Source of the DNA: Salinibaculum litoreum
GTDB taxonomy: Archaea; Halobacteriota; Halobacteria; Halobacteriales; Haloarculaceae
Length of the DNA stretch: 64,000 nt
Assembly (NCBI GenBank): GCA_009789175.1
Contig: CP046866.1
Coordinates: 620,001 to 684,000, forward strand
Reading direction: 5' to 3'
The notes beneath the pieces are model-generated. The model was given only the letters and a program-made list of their open reading frames with translations. It was not told where the DNA came from and did not search any database. Position 1 is the first letter of the stretch; each line of letters starts with the position of its first letter. Made by a program: the position numbers and the translations under genes. Shown here in pieces: positions 6,716 through 38,301 of the stretch.

Positions 6716-6773
6716 ACCGTGTCATCATGACGATAGCATCGCACTGCCCGACAAGACACACTGCACCCGCCAG

Positions 6774-6795
6774 TCATCACAGGCAAGATGGGTGG
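6774..6795 (+). promoter_or_regulatory. Island inverted repeat, copy 1
   Basis: TCATC (6774-6778), eight-base spacer, GATGGGTGG (6787-6795). It lies 137 bases before the first island gene and is followed at once by copy 2, so this gene has a tandem pair of sites. Confidence 0.7.
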
Positions 6796-6840: not shown

Positions 6841-6865
6841 CACCCATCACAGGGAAAATGGGTGG
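6841..6865 (+). promoter_or_regulatory. Island inverted repeat, copy 2
   Basis: CACCCATC (6841-6848), eight-base spacer, AATGGGTGG (6857-6865). The arms CACCCAT and ATGGGTG are exact complements. The site ends 67 bases before the ATG at 6933, leaving room for a real 5' leader. Confidence 0.75.
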
Positions 6866-7935: not shown

Positions 7936-8001
7936 TCTCGTTGCAGTGACCGGCAGTGTGTGTACTCGCACACGCCGCGGTAGCCCGAGACACAGCAGCC
8001 G

Positions 8002-8023
8002 CCATCACTAACAAGATAGGTGG
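8002..8023 (+). promoter_or_regulatory. Island inverted repeat, copy 3
   Basis: CCATC (8002-8006), eight bases, GATAGGTGG (8015-8023). It ends 60 bases before the ATG at 8084, the same leader-type spacing as the paralogous gene at 6933. Confidence 0.75.
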
Positions 8024-13596: not shown

Positions 13597-13618
13597 CCAT
13601 CTCAGCCAAGATGGGTGA
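13597..13618 (+). promoter_or_regulatory. Island inverted repeat, copy 6
   Basis: CCATC (13597-13601), eight bases, GATGGGTGA (13610-13618). The last base deviates from GTGG. An in-frame ATG at 13611 is inside the right box; the next, at 13620, follows it directly. Confidence 0.7.
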
Positions 13619-16827: not shown

Positions 16828-16850
16828 CCCATCACCGAGAATATCGGTGG
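16828..16850 (+). promoter_or_regulatory. Island inverted repeat, copy 7
   Basis: CCCATC (16828-16833), then AATATCGGTGG to 16850, with 12 bases between CCATC and GGTGG. It lies 86 bases before the ATG at 16937, one of the long-leader arrangements. Confidence 0.75.
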
Positions 16851-17764: not shown

Positions 17765-17786
17765 CCATCACCTTGAAAATCGGTGG
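17765..17786 (+). promoter_or_regulatory. Island inverted repeat, copy 8
   Basis: CCATC (17765-17769), 12 bases, GGTGG (17782-17786), preceded by CCACA. The ATG of the next gene begins one base later at 17788, so the repeat occupies the whole initiation region. Confidence 0.78.
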
Positions 17787-18495: not shown

Positions 18496-18771
18496 ATGAC
18501 AGACGAGACACCCTCCGAGACCGACTCCGAGTCCGACAATACCTCCGATGCTGACCCAGCACCGCTCGTTGGCGCACGAATCGAGAACGTGCGACGGATG
18601 ACCGACAGCGAGATGGAAGACGAGATGTGGGAACACAGTAACCGTCACGCACCGGTCATCGAACTCTCCAACGGCATTGTGCTCTATCCAGCAGCAGACC
18701 CAGAAGGAAACGCCCCAGGAGCGCTGTTCACCCGTGAGGGTAGCGACCGATACTACGTCGCTCCAGAGTAG
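18496..18771 (+). CDS. Small acidic island protein
   Basis: 91 residues: a disordered Asp/Glu/Ser N-terminus (1-23) and a small beta-rich domain (APLVGARIENVRRM, VIELSNGIVLYPAADPEG). Not recognised. The last gene of its unit; about 150 bases of non-coding DNA follow. Confidence 0.62.
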   Translation: MTDETPSETDSESDNTSDADPAPLVGARIENVRRMTDSEMEDEMWEHSNRHAPVIELSNGIVLYPAADPEGNAPGALFTREGSDRYYVAPE

Positions 18772-18923
18772 TAACTAGCGACCACTCCCGGGAGTAGTTC
18801 GCACGGACAACCCACGACAACAGCCATGCTTCCAGCGCGTCAGACGTGTTTAGTAAGATTGTCACCCCAGCGACAGACCTTACTACCTCGATACAAATAC
18901 CTATACAAGACAAGGCCAGTCCA

Positions 18924-19721
18924 ATGACCAGTTCAGATACGTCACCCACCGATGTCGACATTGAGGCCGATGCTGGTGGCGGTGCCAGCGCGATGCAAGC
19001 CCGTATCGAATCCGAATTCGGCTCGCTCGAAGCGTTCATTCGACACGACGATGTCGATGTCGAGTGGGAGAGCATCATCCAGGCCGAACTCGCCAACGGA
19101 ACACTCAGCCTCAACGAACGGTCCCGGCCAGACACACTCTATGGCGTGACCCAGTGCATCACGACGGGCTACGGCAAGCTCTACGTCAATATCAACGAGG
19201 ACCCCAACACCGGCGAGCCCTTCGAGGTGTTCTGCAACATTGGCGATTCGGGGAGTTTCGCCGGAGCATTCACTGAAGCACTGGCGAAGACCTGCTCAAC
19301 AGCCCTGCGTGCCGGTGTGGACATCAACGAACTTATCGACGCCCTCGAAGGTATCCGCTCGCCAAAAATCAACCACGACAACGGCAACACTATCTACTCC
19401 ATTCCCCACGGCATCAGCGTGGCCCTCAAGCGCTACCAGGACGGGACCATCCCCCGCTATCCGCCACAGCAACAGCGCCTCGACGACATCGGCAAGCAGG
19501 CAGCGGCCAGCGACAGCAAGACTACGGCCACGGTCAGCGGCGACGACACCAGCGACGCTGCCGACAAAGCCGCGGCAACGGCCACCAGCGATGGGTCTAC
19601 GTCGCCAGCCGGCCATACCAACACCACCAGTACCGAGCCCTGCCCAACCTGTGGGAGTGTCCACATCGAATACTCCGAAGGGTGCAAGACGTGCAGTGAC
19701 TGTGGGTGGTCGGAGTGCTGA
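18924..19721 (+). CDS. Stand-alone TSCPD-domain protein with class II ribonucleotide-reductase-type cysteine tail
   Basis: 265 residues. Residues about 70-180 match the TSCPD domain found at the C-terminus of B12-dependent ribonucleotide reductases (NrdJ): TTGYGKLYVNINEDPNTGEP, PFEVFCNIGDSG and ALRAGVDINELIDALEGIRS. The family's SCPD box is SIPHGISVAL here. A Ser/Thr/Ala linker (190-237) leads to the tail CPTCGSVHIEYSEGCKTCSD then CGWSEC, the cysteine pattern of the NrdJ redox arm. The catalytic barrel is absent. It may bind nucleotides, complement a partner reductase in trans, or act as a dimerisation/redox module. No island repeat lies directly upstream. Confidence 0.82.
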   Translation: MTSSDTSPTDVDIEADAGGGASAMQARIESEFGSLEAFIRHDDVDVEWESIIQAELANGTLSLNERSRPDTLYGVTQCITTGYGKLYVNINEDPNTGEPFEVFCNIGDSGSFAGAFTEALAKTCSTALRAGVDINELIDALEGIRSPKINHDNGNTIYSIPHGISVALKRYQDGTIPRYPPQQQRLDDIGKQAAASDSKTTATVSGDDTSDAADKAAATATSDGSTSPAGHTNTTSTEPCPTCGSVHIEYSEGCKTCSDCGWSEC

Positions 19722-19802: not shown

Positions 19803-19825
19803 CCCATCACCGACAAGATGGGTGG
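19803..19825 (+). promoter_or_regulatory. Island inverted repeat, copy 9 (near-consensus)
   Basis: CCCATC (19803-19808), eight-base spacer ACCGACAA, GATGGGTGG (19817-19825). CCCATC and GATGGG are exact complements. It ends 14 bases before the ATG at 19840. Confidence 0.8.
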
Positions 19826-20918: not shown

Positions 20919-20940
20919 TCATCGCTGGGAATATTGGTGG
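20919..20940 (+). promoter_or_regulatory. Island inverted repeat, copy 10
   Basis: CATC (20920-20923), 12 bases, GGTGG (20936-20940), with the GAATATTGGTGG form of the right box. A possible GTG start lies in the right box and another at 20952. Confidence 0.7.
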
Positions 20941-21391: not shown

Positions 21392-21415
21392 CCCCATCGC
21401 AGACAAGATGGGTGG
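21392..21415 (+). promoter_or_regulatory. Island inverted repeat, copy 11 (near-consensus)
   Basis: CCCCATC (21392-21398), spacer GCAGACAA, GATGGGTGG (21407-21415), preceded by CCACCG. It ends 13 bases before the ATG at 21429. Confidence 0.8.
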
Positions 21416-26694: not shown

Positions 26695-27224
26695 CTATCG
26701 AGAGTGCATAAAAACTACAGGCTTGGGTGGCAATGCGACACATAGCGGTGGGGGTCACGAGCTCAATGGACAATTTATCCCCAGTAGTGACCGTCACACG
26801 AAATAGAACAAGCATCAAGAGGCCATAGACCCGAGCCGCACGCCCTGTGGTCACTGCAATCGCGGGCTGTTCGACCCAGCCGTCACGACCCGCCCCCGCA
26901 GTCGGGTTTACACATCGATAGAGGGGTGTCACGCCGTCCTAGTGTTTTAAGTAGGCTGGCCCAGAACGAGGACAGCAACAAGCACGGCTACCAGACTAAC
27001 CCATAGAACGAGGGGCGAGTCAGGAGTGTCCAGCCATCAACTTGGCACTCCCGACTTATTCCCTTGTTCTGTGCCACGGCGTAAAAGCGTTTCCCCATAG
27101 AGCCATCTCTGTGCGTGAAACGCACCCACACGCCCCCTGCCGACCCCGAGCAGCGACTGCTGCTATCGGTGAGCAACGGGAGCGACTGGTCCAGGAGCCT
27201 ATGCTTGTCAGGAGCGACCACACC
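26695..27224. other. Long intergenic region before the largest island gene
   Basis: About 530 bases. No gene is supported on either strand. It contains the divergent promoter area of the minus-strand gene and the upstream region of the 1042-residue protein. Some T/A-rich words (tgttttaagtagg at about 26943-26955) could be promoter elements. If the large protein is a replication initiator, an origin would be expected here, but I see no iteron array. Confidence 0.4.
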
Positions 27225-30200
27225 ATGGCCACAGGACGGGACGAGACCGCGGTAGATGCACCACCAGACACTGAGACAACGGATGACGGGACCGACGCAG
27301 ATGCGAATGACCCACAGACTACAGCGTCACAGCCAGTCGACTGGCACCAGCAATTGAGTGTCACCAGCGGTCGGGGGGCGCTGGGTCTGTTCGACGATGC
27401 GTTCGCGGGTGCTGCCCAACACGTCGGTGTCGACCATCCAGGGGCAGCACTCGTCGAGACTCTGGCCCAGGAGCGGGTCGATGCATTTCAAGACCAACTC
27501 GAATCGTGTTCACTGCCGACTGCTGGGTCGCTCACGCTCACTCTCAACCAGCACCTTGCCCCCGACCACCGCCTGACGGTAGACGAGGACTGCCCCAGTC
27601 CGACAGCCATCCAGGCAACACTGTTCGATGCCGACGGGGAACTGACGACCGCCCTGGTCGACGCGCTGAAACACCACGCAGCCAATGCAGACAGTGCTCT
27701 CGTCTCGTACTTCATCGATGCCGGCGTCACGGCCCTTGATGGCGTGTATGCCCGCCTCGCTACACAGGCCATTATCGCGCTCGCCCGGGGGCAATCTCCC
27801 CCCGTGTGGAAATTTCTCGCCGTCTCACAGCACCTCGGCGGGCAGATAGAAGGCGACCTCAACTCCAGCCTTGACGACATCCGAACTGGGCCGGTCGCCC
27901 TGCTGGCCACGACAGACAGCACGCCGACAGTCGAAATCGAACTAGAGCGGGGGTTTTTCGAGGCCAACTCGACGCTTCGAGAGCGGTTTATCAACCATCT
28001 CGTGCGGCTCATGCCTGGCGTGGACATCCGTCTCGTTGGCACTCGCACCTGTCTGCGTCAGCTGCTGGATGCCCACGGTGACCAGCTCCCGACATCTGTG
28101 AGTGAGAACGCAAAACAGTCCCTCCGTGCGCGACCAACAGCGCGGTCACTCACGGCAGAGCGGGCAGCGCGTGCCCAGGCAGCGCTGGACCAGCTTGGCC
28201 GTGAGCATCCAGCGTGGGCTGTCCTGGCAGCACTCGCCGACGCTCGCCGTGAACAACGCGCGTATAGCGACCTTTACGACGACGAGCGCTTCGACGTATC
28301 AGCATCTGCGATTCGTCGCCGCCTTGGGGCACTCCGAGACGTCGATTGCGTTACCTCAACGCGCTGTAACGGTGCGATGCACGCCACACTCACACCCGTC
28401 GGCCACGCTGCCCTCGTCGCGCATCCATCATACGATGTCGGCGAAACACGAGCATCACCAACATCATCTCGGCCCGGATGGGCTGGCAGCCGTGACAGCA
28501 CCGCTGATGGTGCGACGACGGCTACGACAGCAAGCGTGACGGACCCGCGAAATTCTCTCAACAGTACCGTGTGTTCCAGCGAGACGGGAGGGGGCAGGGG
28601 ACAGTCGTCCACGGACCGCCCCGCCGAGGCGGACGGCCATACCGACGCAGACACGGCCGTGCCGACCACCAAGTTTCTCTCCACCGCCGAGCATCACGCA
28701 CTCACAGCAGCGGCAGCAGACGGCCATATCGCCCTGCTTGAGCGGTCTGTTCCCGCCGCCGAGCGCGACCGCCGGCAACCCCGCTTCAGTTTCGACAGTG
28801 CCCGTGACGAACTTATCGCCAGTGTCGATTACTCCCCCTGTCTGGCCCTGACAGCGGTCCGCTTGTGCGCTGCGTTACTGAGCGACCCGGCATTCGACCA
28901 AGTACTCACGGAGGACCGTCTCGCAGGCCAGTCCACAGCCGAACTCGGTGGGCTTGCAGTTTCCGACATCCTCCAGCTTCGTGATGGGGCCTGTCTAGGG
29001 TGGCTACCAGATGGTATCACTGCCGCCGAGTTCCGCACACGACTCCAGCAGGCGAAACGTGGGCTCTTACGGGCGACGACGGACCTCACCGACGACACCG
29101 GCCAAGTCGATGGGGCAGTCGCCCGAACCATCCTCAAAGAAGCCCACGGGTTGATGGGTGTCGCCACCCGTGTGTACGACTTCTTGGGCGTCGACATCGT
29201 CCGCGAACTGCGATTCCCCCGACGCGTCCCCACTGATACACAGCGTCGCCGTGATTTACAGCGGTTTCTCGCCACCGCAAGCAGTATCGGCGGTCGCTAC
29301 GACATCTACTCCGCCTATCGCGTTCTCCACGAGGGCTCCGAGTCGAACCGGGAGCAACTCCTGTCCACACCGGCTGTTGACCCGCACGACCCGGTCGGGA
29401 CGCTCCTGGGCGCATTCGTTCTCACCGGCACGGGCGCAGCCGACTTCGAAGACGCCCTTGCTGACGGCGATAGCGGGCTCACACTCCAGCAAGACGCGAC
29501 ACACTACGCCCCGTTTGTCCTTAATGGTGACATCATCGACGCGAGCCGACGGTCTGCTATCGGCGAAGCAGCGACCCGGGTGCTGGTTGATACAGACGGC
29601 CTTGGGCCAGACCGACAGGCACTCTCAGTCTTGGCAGCACTGGCCGGCGACGTGGTCACCGCAGCGACCGCTCTCACGCGACTTGGCGGTGAGGATGAAC
29701 CACGGCGACTCGATATGCAGGATGTCAGGTACGGACTTTCGACCATACCCGCCGACCGGATTGTCCCCGAACTCGGCGGGCAGGTAGTCTCGAAGGTCAT
29801 CGCAGCACTCATCGACAGCCAAGAGCCCCTGACGACAGCAGCGCTGGCTACCCGCGCTGGGTGTTCACAACGCGCTCTGACGACAGCATCGAACGCACAG
29901 CTATTCGCCGAACTCGAGGCCGCTGGACTCCTCCAGCGAACCCAACAGGGACCAGGGCAAGCAACACTGTGGCGACTCCGCATGCCGTTTCGCAGGGAGC
30001 GACACGACAGCGAACCGCTCCCGACGATGCTCACCGGACGAGTGACGGGGCCGTTAGGTGGCGAATGGCACCTCAGCGATGCGCTCTGTGCGGTCCTGAC
30101 GACGGCACACGACAGCCACGGTATCACGTATCCACTGGCCTTCAACAGCGAGAGAGCTACCGCCGCGTTCACTGGGCCACCCGACACCCGACAGTTACAA

Positions 30201-30353
30201 CCGCTGCTCAATCGTCTCCCACAGCTCCGGCCACTCAGTAGACTGCTAGCGATGCTGCTGGACCAACCACTCCCCTCCAGCACACCGAGTAGCCTCTCGC
30301 TGGGCGAGCATCCATACCCGGCCCAGCAGGCACTCACCGAGGTGGACACGTGA
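27225..30353 (+). CDS. Very large island protein with two winged-helix-like segments
   Basis: 1042 residues from ATG 27225 (GGAG 12-15 bases upstream); in-frame ATGs at 27201 and further upstream are less convincing. It is soluble and acidic, with an Asp/Thr-rich first 45 residues and a low-complexity Ser/Thr/Gly region near 405-480. One winged-helix-like segment lies at about 330-395 (AVLAALADARREQRAYSDLY, SASAIRRRLGAL) and another at about 845-915 (TTAALATRAGCSQRALTTAS). No ATPase, primase or nuclease motif is visible. Size, acidity and context resemble plasmid replication or maintenance proteins of haloarchaea such as RepH. That is a hypothesis only; a large regulator is equally possible. 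Confidence 0.7.
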   Translation: MATGRDETAVDAPPDTETTDDGTDADANDPQTTASQPVDWHQQLSVTSGRGALGLFDDAFAGAAQHVGVDHPGAALVETLAQERVDAFQDQLESCSLPTAGSLTLTLNQHLAPDHRLTVDEDCPSPTAIQATLFDADGELTTALVDALKHHAANADSALVSYFIDAGVTALDGVYARLATQAIIALARGQSPPVWKFLAVSQHLGGQIEGDLNSSLDDIRTGPVALLATTDSTPTVEIELERGFFEANSTLRERFINHLVRLMPGVDIRLVGTRTCLRQLLDAHGDQLPTSVSENAKQSLRARPTARSLTAERAARAQAALDQLGREHPAWAVLAALADARREQRAYSDLYDDERFDVSASAIRRRLGALRDVDCVTSTRCNGAMHATLTPVGHAALVAHPSYDVGETRASPTSSRPGWAGSRDSTADGATTATTASVTDPRNSLNSTVCSSETGGGRGQSSTDRPAEADGHTDADTAVPTTKFLSTAEHHALTAAAADGHIALLERSVPAAERDRRQPRFSFDSARDELIASVDYSPCLALTAVRLCAALLSDPAFDQVLTEDRLAGQSTAELGGLAVSDILQLRDGACLGWLPDGITAAEFRTRLQQAKRGLLRATTDLTDDTGQVDGAVARTILKEAHGLMGVATRVYDFLGVDIVRELRFPRRVPTDTQRRRDLQRFLATASSIGGRYDIYSAYRVLHEGSESNREQLLSTPAVDPHDPVGTLLGAFVLTGTGAADFEDALADGDSGLTLQQDATHYAPFVLNGDIIDASRRSAIGEAATRVLVDTDGLGPDRQALSVLAALAGDVVTAATALTRLGGEDEPRRLDMQDVRYGLSTIPADRIVPELGGQVVSKVIAALIDSQEPLTTAALATRAGCSQRALTTASNAQLFAELEAAGLLQRTQQGPGQATLWRLRMPFRRERHDSEPLPTMLTGRVTGPLGGEWHLSDALCAVLTTAHDSHGITYPLAFNSERATAAFTGPPDTRQLQPLLNRLPQLRPLSRLLAMLLDQPLPSSTPSSLSLGEHPYPAQQALTEVDT

Positions 30354-30463
30354 CACCAGCAGACAGGCGACGCGGCCGCTTCCAACTGATGGAATCGATA
30401 CCATTAAGAGCGAGTGACAGGTGTCCGCAATTATCAGAACCCGTGTGGTGGCCAGTGTCCATC

Positions 30464-30485
30464 TCATCACTCGGAAAATTGGCGG
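30464..30485 (+). promoter_or_regulatory. Island inverted repeat, copy 13
   Basis: TCATC (30464-30468), 12 bases, GGCGG (30481-30485). It lies 14 bases before the ATG of a 27-codon frame at 30500 that is coupled to the 30580 gene. Confidence 0.68.
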
Positions 30486-30499
30486 TGAACCATCTAACT

Positions 30500-30583
30500 A
30501 TGGCAGTCTCAGTCTCAATTGCAGAGTGCTGTCGTCTGCTGGCGACCAGCCATCGTCGACACCGACACGGAGAGTGGCCATGA
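30500..30583 (+). CDS. Possible 27-residue leader peptide
   Basis: ATG 30500 sits where gene starts usually lie relative to an island repeat. The short frame ends in TGA at 30581-30583, overlapping the ATG of the next gene in ATGA. It is rich in Arg and His at its end. It may be a leader that couples translation of the DUF6884-like gene. A chance frame cannot be excluded. Confidence 0.35.
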   Translation: MAVSVSIAECCRLLATSHRRHRHGEWP

Positions 30584-31098
30584 GCGAGCGGACAGCATAC
30601 ACGACGCTCGACCGACCGCCAGTCGAGTCGCTCACGGGCGTCATCGGATGCTCGGCGTCGAAAGTCGGTGACGACGACCCCGCCCGCCGTGACGAGCTCC
30701 TGCCGGCGACAGAGCGCTACGATTCCTGGCTGTTCGACAAGCGACAGGCAGCCGTCGACGCCCACTGTGACGACTGGTGGATTTTCAGCGGCCAGTTCGG
30801 CGCGGTCACGCCGGAGGAAGAACTGCCCTGGTACGACAAGCGACTCGACGATAACCCACCAGCTATCCAGCGGATTCTCGCCCGGCAGGTAGTCGCGCAG
30901 CTCCCCGATGTCGACTGTATTCTGATCCTCGCTGGGAGAGACTACTGGGAGCCCCTCGATGCCGTCCTCCCAACCGATGTCGCCGTCTGGGACCCGCTTC
31001 GAGGCGTCGGCCTCTTCGAGCAGCGCAGCAAGCTCAAGGAGTTAGCAAACAGGGCGACCGACGAGAGTTCCACAACTGCAACAGGCCATGACACGTAG
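30580..31098 (+). CDS. DUF6884-like protein
   Basis: 172 residues. It shows the DUF6884 landmarks: a strand ending in VIGCSASKVG (CS.K motif), a helix before WWIFSGQFGAVTPEEELPWY (SGxxGxxxP), and later CILILAGRDYWEPL. Proteins of this type are small, single-domain and frequent in phages, plasmids and genomic islands. Their chemistry is not established to my knowledge; the conserved Cys, Lys and SG(Q/K)xG residues suggest a nucleotide or nucleoside site. It is the only member of its unit with a recognised family. An IS200/IS605-like hairpin directly follows. Confidence 0.72.
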   Translation: MSERTAYTTLDRPPVESLTGVIGCSASKVGDDDPARRDELLPATERYDSWLFDKRQAAVDAHCDDWWIFSGQFGAVTPEEELPWYDKRLDDNPPAIQRILARQVVAQLPDVDCILILAGRDYWEPLDAVLPTDVAVWDPLRGVGLFEQRSKLKELANRATDESSTTATGHDT

Positions 31099-34099: not shown

Positions 34100-34351
34100 A
34101 TGACAGAACAACCATGTCCCTGCTGCGGTAGTTCGACGAGCCTCTCGCTGAAAGACGAAGCAGGCTACGCCAAGTTCTGGTTCTGCTGCCACGATGTCGA
34201 GGACTGTGGGTGGGAGAGCCGGACGTTCCGTGGTCCATCACGGCCAGAATCGGAAATCGACGAGATAGGCTACGACCGCCACTGCGAACGGTTCCGCGCC
34301 GCTGCCTACGAGAAAGCAGCAGAGATAGACACCAGCGACCTCCCGGCATGA
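34100..34351 (+). CDS. Zinc-ribbon protein coupled to a DNA methyltransferase
   Basis: 83 residues. The N-terminal CPCC pair (about 6-9), with CC (29-30) and CGW (about 36), gives the CxxC...C/CxxxxxC pattern of a Com- or Lar-like zinc ribbon, used by some phages and plasmids as partner of a DNA-modification gene. The ATGA overlap with the methyltransferase at 34348 supports a joint role. The rest is a helical tail. The Com/Lar comparison is an inference from pattern and context. Confidence 0.66.
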   Translation: MTEQPCPCCGSSTSLSLKDEAGYAKFWFCCHDVEDCGWESRTFRGPSRPESEIDEIGYDRHCERFRAAAYEKAAEIDTSDLPA

Positions 34352-36072
34352 CTGCCTCATCACTTATGGCACGAGTCTCGGCACTCACGGCCCGCCTCAC
34401 GGACCGCCCCGATACCGCCCGCGACCCTGTTTATCGCAGCGAAGCTTGGCTGACTGCACCGTCACCGGACATCATCAGCGACGAACTGTGGCCGGTTCCC
34501 ATTTTCGAGCGCCAACGCCAGCACCAAGTCATCGACATCGGCGGGACTGAAATCAGGCCCGGCGACGTCCTCGAGAACCTTCAGCCAACGCACGTCGAAG
34601 CGCTCCTAGTCTGTGCCGTCCTGCCCGAGCCCATCTCCACCCCAGCACAGACGGCCGCCGCCAGTTCTCGGCTCCTCTGCTATTCCGATGAGTTCCAGTG
34701 CTATCGAGTTCTCTCGGCGAAGGGATTGGTCCCGAAAGCGGGCAATCCACAGGTGTTGACGGTCAATGGCGGAGACGATATGTACTACGTACACACCGAC
34801 GTTGCTGACCCGCTGACGTTTTGCGGAGCCAGCAAGAGAGATGCCGAGCGAACCTATCGGCGGTGTCCGGGTGACGAGCGGCCGGTCGTCGCTGACCGTG
34901 ACCGGTACCCCAGCCGGACCCGGCCACTCCCGGATGGCGAAGACAGTCCCCGCAGTCGCGTACTCGAAGAGGCTGCCGGCTCAATTATCGCAGGCGATGT
35001 CCGCGAGATTCTCCCAGACCTGCCGACAAACAGCGTCCACACGGCGATAACCTCCCCACCGTACTGGTCGCAACGGGACTATGGCGACACCGACCAGCTG
35101 GGCCAGGAGCCAACCGCCGACGCATATCTCTCGACGCTGTGTGACGTCCTCGACGAGACGATGGCGGTTCTCAGAACCGACGGGCTGTGTTGGCTCGTTA
35201 TCGACGACGTCTACGAGAACGGAGCGCTGGTCGGGATTCCCCAGCGATTGCATCGGGCTATCGAGGCGATGGGCTATGAGGTCGTCCACCACAGCCCCTG
35301 GGTCAAGACCTCTTCACGGCCAGACGCAGCAAGCAGCCGCCTAGGACAGTCCCACGAAAAGGTATTGGCTATCGCCCACGAAGGCAATGACCACTATTTC
35401 ATCAGGGAGGAAGCGCCCTCGGATACCGACGTGTTCATCGTCGACTCCTCCTACGAGACAGACATCGACCACGACGCGATGTATCCGCCAGAGCTCGTGC
35501 GACAGCTCCTCGAACCGTCAGTCCCCAAGCGCGTCTGTCCGGTGTGTGGCACGCCGCACGAACCACAGTACGAGGTGACGGACATCCGCAATCTGGATAC
35601 CTCGCGGCCGCAGGCCAAGACAGCACTGGAAAAGGCTGCCGAGGCAAACCTTTCTGACGACCACCTGGAAGCACTGCGGGCCGTCGGCCTCTCCGATGTT
35701 GGCCAGGCAAAGCGCACACAGGACGGGGCCGGGAAGAACGCCGCCGACACCGAAGTACTCGCCGCCGAGGCCCGTGAGGAGCTCGGTTCGTACGCCCGCG
35801 AGTTCGTGTCCCCGGAGAAGGACCTCGTCGGCTTCGACCCGCAGTGTGACTGCGAGGCAGATGGCTTCGAGTCAGGTATCGTCCTCGACCCGTTTGCCGG
35901 CAGTGGCACGACGCTCTCGGTCGCCAAAGAGCACAATCGCCGCTTCATCGGCATCGAGGTGAACGAAGAGTACATCACCGAGGCGGAACGGCGAGTCGGG
36001 CTCTCCGTGTCAAATCCCCAAACACTACGGGATGTCAGCCAGAAGGGAATAGACTCGTTCAACAATGGATGA
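34348..36072 (+). CDS. Beta-class DNA methyltransferase (N4-cytosine or N6-adenine)
   Basis: 574 residues from ATG 34348. The first 200 residues are an extra domain not seen in short methyltransferases. The catalytic motif IV TSPPYW (about 235) comes before the SAM-binding motif I DPFAGSGTT (about 515), the order of beta-class enzymes. TSPPY favours N4-cytosine methylation but N6-adenine is possible. The region between (270-500) contains a CPVCG...CDC cysteine set and a target-recognition segment. No cognate endonuclease is adjacent. A remnant of a second, related methyltransferase lies at 36903-36968. Confidence 0.9.
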   Translation: MTASSLMARVSALTARLTDRPDTARDPVYRSEAWLTAPSPDIISDELWPVPIFERQRQHQVIDIGGTEIRPGDVLENLQPTHVEALLVCAVLPEPISTPAQTAAASSRLLCYSDEFQCYRVLSAKGLVPKAGNPQVLTVNGGDDMYYVHTDVADPLTFCGASKRDAERTYRRCPGDERPVVADRDRYPSRTRPLPDGEDSPRSRVLEEAAGSIIAGDVREILPDLPTNSVHTAITSPPYWSQRDYGDTDQLGQEPTADAYLSTLCDVLDETMAVLRTDGLCWLVIDDVYENGALVGIPQRLHRAIEAMGYEVVHHSPWVKTSSRPDAASSRLGQSHEKVLAIAHEGNDHYFIREEAPSDTDVFIVDSSYETDIDHDAMYPPELVRQLLEPSVPKRVCPVCGTPHEPQYEVTDIRNLDTSRPQAKTALEKAAEANLSDDHLEALRAVGLSDVGQAKRTQDGAGKNAADTEVLAAEAREELGSYAREFVSPEKDLVGFDPQCDCEADGFESGIVLDPFAGSGTTLSVAKEHNRRFIGIEVNEEYITEAERRVGLSVSNPQTLRDVSQKGIDSFNNG

Positions 36073-38098: not shown

Positions 38099-38279
38099 TA
38101 ACAGTAGCTCACAGCACGGTACAGCCGAGCATAACAGTATCGGAGCCCAACAGCACGCTTCGACCCGTCCACACCGGCCGCACCGCTCAGTGGTCTGGTT
38201 TCGAGAGGTGCCCGTGAGGGCAGGCTAACCACGTAGACAACGGAGCAGGCGCTTGTTAAGTGTTTCCGGTCGGCCGCCA

Positions 38280-38301
38280 CCATCACCGAGAAAATGAGTG
38301 G
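38280..38301 (+). promoter_or_regulatory. Island inverted repeat, copy 16
   Basis: CCATC (38280-38284), 12 bases, AGTGG (38297-38301), preceded by CCGCCA. It ends eight bases before the ATG at 38310 and is the last copy before the island's right edge. Confidence 0.75.

Follow-up and report, generated by a model that had tools for sequence, protein, structure and literature searches.

A stand-alone C-terminal NrdJ protein on a predicted mobile element of a haloarchaeon with a complete NrdJ

The window, i.e. the whole stretch of 64,000 nucleotides that was analysed, corresponds to G000:C1:620001-684000 in a haloarchaeal genome of 3.73 Mb. A protein of 265 amino acids is encoded on its plus strand at positions 18924-19721. 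The frame is open from the ATG at 18924 to the stop codon at 19719-19721; an alternative upstream start, the GTG at 18846, would add 26 residues. The gene lies in a region of low GC content (0.50-0.62 compared with 0.65 just before it), where two DNA methylase genes are also found. The following features were assigned.

18924-19721, plus strand: stand-alone NrdJ C-terminal protein, 265 amino acids, with TSCPD domain and six-cysteine tail (translation; Pfam, NCBIfam, PHROGs)
18972-19094, plus strand: helical linker, residues 17-57, equivalent of the NrdJ stretch preceding TSCPD (model helices 17-32, 35-39 and 42-57; NrdJ alignment)
19158-19436, plus strand: TSCPD (IscU-like) domain, residues 79-171, with extra C104 and C124 inside and C78 one residue ahead (PF12637; pLDDT >90 over most of it)
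19641-19718, plus strand: six-cysteine tail, residues 240-265 (invariant cysteines)
18496-18771, plus strand: upstream neighbour, 91 amino acids (homologues on elements with other stand-alone tails)
27042-30353, plus strand: RepH-type replication protein of the carrier element (phrog_17376, E = 1e-117; related proteins in haloarchaeal plasmids, phiH and phiCh1)
30421-31098, plus strand: DUF6884 protein (homologue on Haloplanus-type elements)

PF12637 (TSCPD) was the one significant Pfam domain, at residues 79-171 (E = 3.9e-18; 66 bits against a cut-off of 22.8). The NCBIfam model PRK08665 for B12-dependent RNR aligned to residues 61-265 with only its positions 592-758 of 759 (E = 3.2e-33), and the PHROGs family phrog_23565, annotated as 'ribonucleotide reductase' with a profile length of 199, covered residues 68-265. 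The tail reads C240-x2-C243-x10-C254-x2-C257-x2-C260-x4-C265, and an alignment of 39 homologues, drawn from haloarchaea, haloviruses and bacteria, showed its six cysteines to be invariant. The catalytic barrel with its B12 and substrate sites is absent from the ORF. The protein is a detached NrdJ C-terminal part, composed of linker, TSCPD domain, flexible tether and six-cysteine tail. An earlier note on this DNA had described TSCPD landmarks and an NrdJ-like C-terminal cysteine array without a catalytic barrel, and had identified the protein accordingly. The profile searches and the alignment confirmed this description far beyond chance, and PF12637, PRK08665 and the six cysteines showed the identity to be correct. 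The literal landmark is SIPDA in haloarchaeal NrdJ versus SIPHG in the window protein, where the conserved Asp is replaced by His. By analogy with a characterized tail (PMC5704485), C240, C243, C257 and C260 were assigned as putative zinc ligands and C254 and C265 as the putative redox pair.

An AlphaFold2 model was built on a 37-row alignment, with two rows left out. It had a mean pLDDT of 80.7. Helices within residues 17-57 corresponded to the NrdJ linker, followed by a confident alpha/beta domain at about 73-173 and a confident tail; the tether between domain and tail was disordered (pLDDT <50 at 203-235). No meaningful solved homologues were obtained by sequence search, and a PDB search with the model gave weak matches to SufU (E = 0.28-0.5, probability about 0.2). 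The good matches in a viral model library were C-termini of phage RNRs, among them short proteins of 122-184 amino acids, so that short stand-alone forms exist in phages. The domain that precedes the tail in class II RNRs has been described as IscU-like (PMC9669993). The use of the fold for nucleotide binding, which the earlier note had offered as an option, found no support, since the fold is IscU-like (PMC9669993) and the weak SufU matches of the predicted structure were the sole hints from the PDB.

Genome searches with PF12637, PRK08665 and PF02867 found one further locus, at C1:1548-1551 kb. It encodes a complete NrdJ of 1048 amino acids with its own TSCPD domain and six-cysteine tail, and its C-terminal end reads CPDCGSLSLYYSEGCKTCESCGWSEC. 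This chromosomal NrdJ was the sole PF02867 match, giving the genome one catalytic RNR. Whether the host NrdJ misses its own C-terminal part, as the earlier note had proposed to check, could thus be answered: it does not. Because the host NrdJ is complete, the window protein is an additional tail, and its being the other half of a split enzyme was ruled out. The idea that the protein complements a reductase in trans therefore fell in the sense of a missing half; trans action on a complete enzyme may still occur, and published studies support a relay role of the tail that can extend across subunits (PMC5704485, PMC4520616). The note had also held that a complete host NrdJ combined with unconserved cysteines would speak against its proposal. 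The host enzyme is complete, but all six cysteines are conserved.

Known stand-alone NrdJ tails form one half of a split enzyme (PMC3653736). In Pseudomonas aeruginosa, the separate tail subunit NrdJb forms an (NrdJa-NrdJb)2 complex in which it performs dithiol exchange on behalf of NrdJa, and NrdJa, which has no tail, is useless in vivo without it (PMC4520616). NrdJb resembles the window protein as a separate polypeptide with an IscU-like domain and a zinc/redox tail (PMC4520616). However, the catalytic chain of P. aeruginosa is tail-less, whereas the sole catalytic chain of the window host is full length with a tail; no tail-less NrdJa partner, the mark of a split-subunit enzyme, was found in this host. 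YS40_042 (199 amino acids) of the Thermus phage phiYS40 is likewise a stand-alone TSCPD domain with tail in a mobile element, and phrog_23565, with its 199-position profile, matches the window protein. In the phage, the N-terminal ORF of this split NrdJ lies immediately ahead of YS40_042, a partner that the window protein does not have. The cysteine-rich tail of Stackebrandtia nassauensis NrdJd (Cys-920, 923, 933, 936, 939 and 945) has its six cysteines in the same order and with near-identical spacing, but it is fused to the catalytic barrel whereas the window tail is free (PMC5704485). Tail spacing of this kind was shown to bind zinc and to shuttle electrons. In NrdJd all six cysteines are needed for TCEP-driven turnover, electrons pass between subunits, oligomerisation depends on the C-terminal domain, and thioredoxins and glutaredoxins do not interact with the enzyme (PMC5704485). 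A separate tail domain, which was poorly soluble, did not restore TCEP activity to the tail-less NrdJ (PMC5704485). The open-licence papers found contain no account of a free tail that lacks a catalytic half of its own, recurs on archaeal elements and coexists with a complete enzyme in the host.

To gauge constraint, 45 cellular haloarchaeal NrdJ C-termini were compared, a column being counted as conserved at 95% or more. The window protein differed at 33 of 115 conserved columns. Within the TSCPD part, 22 of 80 were changed (including W151H and D162H), while none of the six tail cysteines was. Cysteines 78, 104 and 124 are extra; the region is cysteine-free in 44 of the 45 relatives. They may provide an additional redox or metal site. 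With the loss of W151 and D162, both conserved in NrdJ, and the IscU-like fold (PMC9669993), they would fit a repurposed protein with a metal, Fe-S or redox role unrelated to RNR. Such a role appears quite improbable, as cysteine at position 104 is usual in bacterial NrdJ, the new cysteines lie off the IscU ligand-type positions by our reading of the alignment, and the RNR-specific tail has been retained.

The strong divergence of the window copy also agrees with a decaying fragment, an nrdJ piece captured by the mobile element and now drifting, for which a donor is at hand because haloviruses and plasmids carry full-length nrdJ. Against this, 265 codons have stayed free of stops and the six cysteines intact. 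When neutral drift from the host sequence was simulated with indels ignored, the frame stayed open and kept all six cysteines in 0.12% of simulations at half of the observed nucleotide distance and in 1.4% at a quarter. The argument against a relic is modest, given that indels were ignored and that conservation of the whole tail did not significantly exceed that of the other conserved columns (P = 0.14; 0.004 for a core picked post hoc). A neutral relic is nevertheless unlikely as judged from the sequence, and decay as an explanation for the gene is given a low probability.

No close relatives of the window copy were found in 392 genomes of the order, in 146 of the family or in viral contigs. 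The next matches were NrdJ C-termini with about 42-53% identity. In the tree the window protein stood on a very long branch among cellular NrdJs, away from a clade of stand-alone tails on plasmids. Because the branch is long, the AU test rejected neither a single clade with these plasmid proteins (p-AU = 0.49) nor a grouping with NrdJ from the same genus (p-AU = 0.48). Some other genomes contain short NrdJ frames, which were not accepted as clean stand-alones because they lay at contig ends or in masked stretches or were broken, and the haloviruses HCTV-1, HCTV-5 and HVTV-1 were dismissed as precedents, as they encode full-length NrdJ. Separately, two NrdJ C-termini with identical scores occur 13 kb apart in another genome (G121:C1:977550-978335 and 990911-991696), which could reflect a recent duplication or a repeat in the assembly.

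Stand-alone tails were present on plasmids of Halorarius halobius, Haloplanus rubicundus and Haloplanus sp. HW8-1, and also in genomes G337 and G418 (five loci, L051-L053, L056 and L057). The loci have a common gene neighbourhood, with ParA and integrase genes in four of the five. Like the window protein, these tails consist of TSCPD domain and tail without a barrel, with a full-length host NrdJ frame alongside; the three hosts examined as whole genomes (G066, G337 and G418) each have one. Unlike the window protein, they have no linker helices and are nearer to ordinary NrdJ (about 62-72% identity). They are 75-100% identical to each other and form one 100/100 clade within the NrdJ of the Haloferacaceae type. 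Between distinct members of this group dN/dS was 0.15-0.21; these sequences are under purifying selection, which argues against decay. In favour of decay, locus-tag gaps at the plasmid genes (e.g. NL112_RS22515 to RS22525) suggest that the NCBI pipeline flagged them as pseudogenes. The plasmid copies are missing from NCBI-derived gene tables. The tails at L053:7986-8606, L056:7406-8026 (minus strand) and L057:7249-7869 have a GTG start preceded by an in-frame TGA; the Halorarius copy runs on upstream of this point.

The carrier of the window gene is, by its sequence, a plasmid-like element integrated in the chromosome, with a RepH-type replication gene and DNA methylases. The 91-residue neighbour and the DUF6884 gene represent two neighbour-gene families in common with the Haloplanus/Halorarius-type elements, which shows the two settings to be related. 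A scan covering 27 small neighbours and a set of large ORFs recognised no viral structural genes. The vicinity of the tail gene yielded neither a nucleotide-metabolism gene nor any sign of a defence or regulatory setting.

For class II RNRs with a zinc tail, a naturally free tail beside a complete NrdJ offers a test case, both for electron delivery in trans and for tail-driven oligomerisation. The extra tail probably assists or tunes the complete host enzyme from outside. As a tentative model by analogy with NrdJb, we propose that it is an accessory subunit of the mobile element that may dock on the host NrdJ and re-reduce the active site in trans, alter oligomerisation, or both. The TSCPD part would dock on NrdJ dimers or oligomers. 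The C254/C265 thiol pair, held by the zinc site, would then re-reduce the active-site disulfide and add relay capacity to a target already bearing a tail. With or instead of this relay, the free tail could shift the oligomeric state of NrdJ. For its own replication the element would gain dNTPs or escape allosteric damping.

The accessory subunit is supported by the tail spacing and the six cysteines shared with S. nassauensis NrdJd (PMC5704485), by P. aeruginosa NrdJb, which does the job in trans (PMC4520616), and by the model, in which a confident domain and tail are joined by a disordered tether. Further support comes from the complete host NrdJ, the improbability of the frame and cysteines under drift, the selection on the plasmid tails in hosts with a full-length NrdJ frame, and a carrier that replicates its own DNA (RepH). 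It is weakened because the target already carries a tail, which leaves the need unclear, and because the separate, poorly soluble domain failed with tail-less NrdJ (PMC5704485). Moreover, the strongest changes fall in the TSCPD part, which is expected to dock, the gene has no recognised nucleotide-metabolism neighbour, and selection is gauged only indirectly, no orthologue of the window copy having been found.

The same observations bear on a decoy or inhibitor. Here the free domain would enter host NrdJ oligomers or capture the electron donor, and dNTP synthesis would be lowered or re-tuned for copy control or against competing viruses. A complete host enzyme needs no help, the docking-type domain is altered with the tail cysteines kept, and this domain drives NrdJ oligomerisation in S. 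nassauensis (PMC5704485). A pure decoy, however, does not need all six tail cysteines, and the missing defence or regulatory context also speaks against it; we consider it unlikely.

If the accessory subunit is real, it would show that a mobile element can steer dNTP synthesis of its host through a single small subunit rather than a complete enzyme. More generally, and with considerable doubt, haloarchaeal mobile elements might have detached the NrdJ C-terminal module, perhaps repeatedly, as an autonomous trans-acting effector of intact host NrdJ (electron relay or oligomer switch). We know of no description of class II RNR control by a free tail subunit.

Further observations concern the surroundings of the gene. 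A 620-residue DNA methylase ORF at window positions 34210-36072 (plus strand) has a conserved C-terminal methylase segment at 554-593 and N-terminal matches at about 249-373, with a long unmatched stretch between them. The low-GC island (0.50-0.62) extends over about 550-684 kb of G000:C1 (L081-L084 and the window). One ORF of 381 amino acids, probably a transposase, is repeated in it at 552 kb (minus strand), 584 kb and 615 kb with an identical N-terminus, which suggests that the island is a composite of several insertions. An oriented motif of 21 nucleotides with the consensus CATCNCNNNNAANATGGGTGG, often hairpin-capable, was located as follows.

Window 6773-6795, 6843-6865, 8001-8023, 13598-13618 and 16828-16850, plus strand: 21-nucleotide motif
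Window 17766-17786, 19803-19825, 20920-20940, 21393-21415 and 38279-38301, plus strand: 21-nucleotide motif
G000:C1 562182, 567623 and 571773 (outside the window), plus strand: 21-nucleotide motif

Thirteen of the 14 copies in the genome lie at 562-658 kb, all on the plus strand, and the reversed control gave 0. The tail gene has no copy; most copies lie within about 20 nucleotides of a start codon, and the motif may serve the mobile element as a common 5' control sequence.
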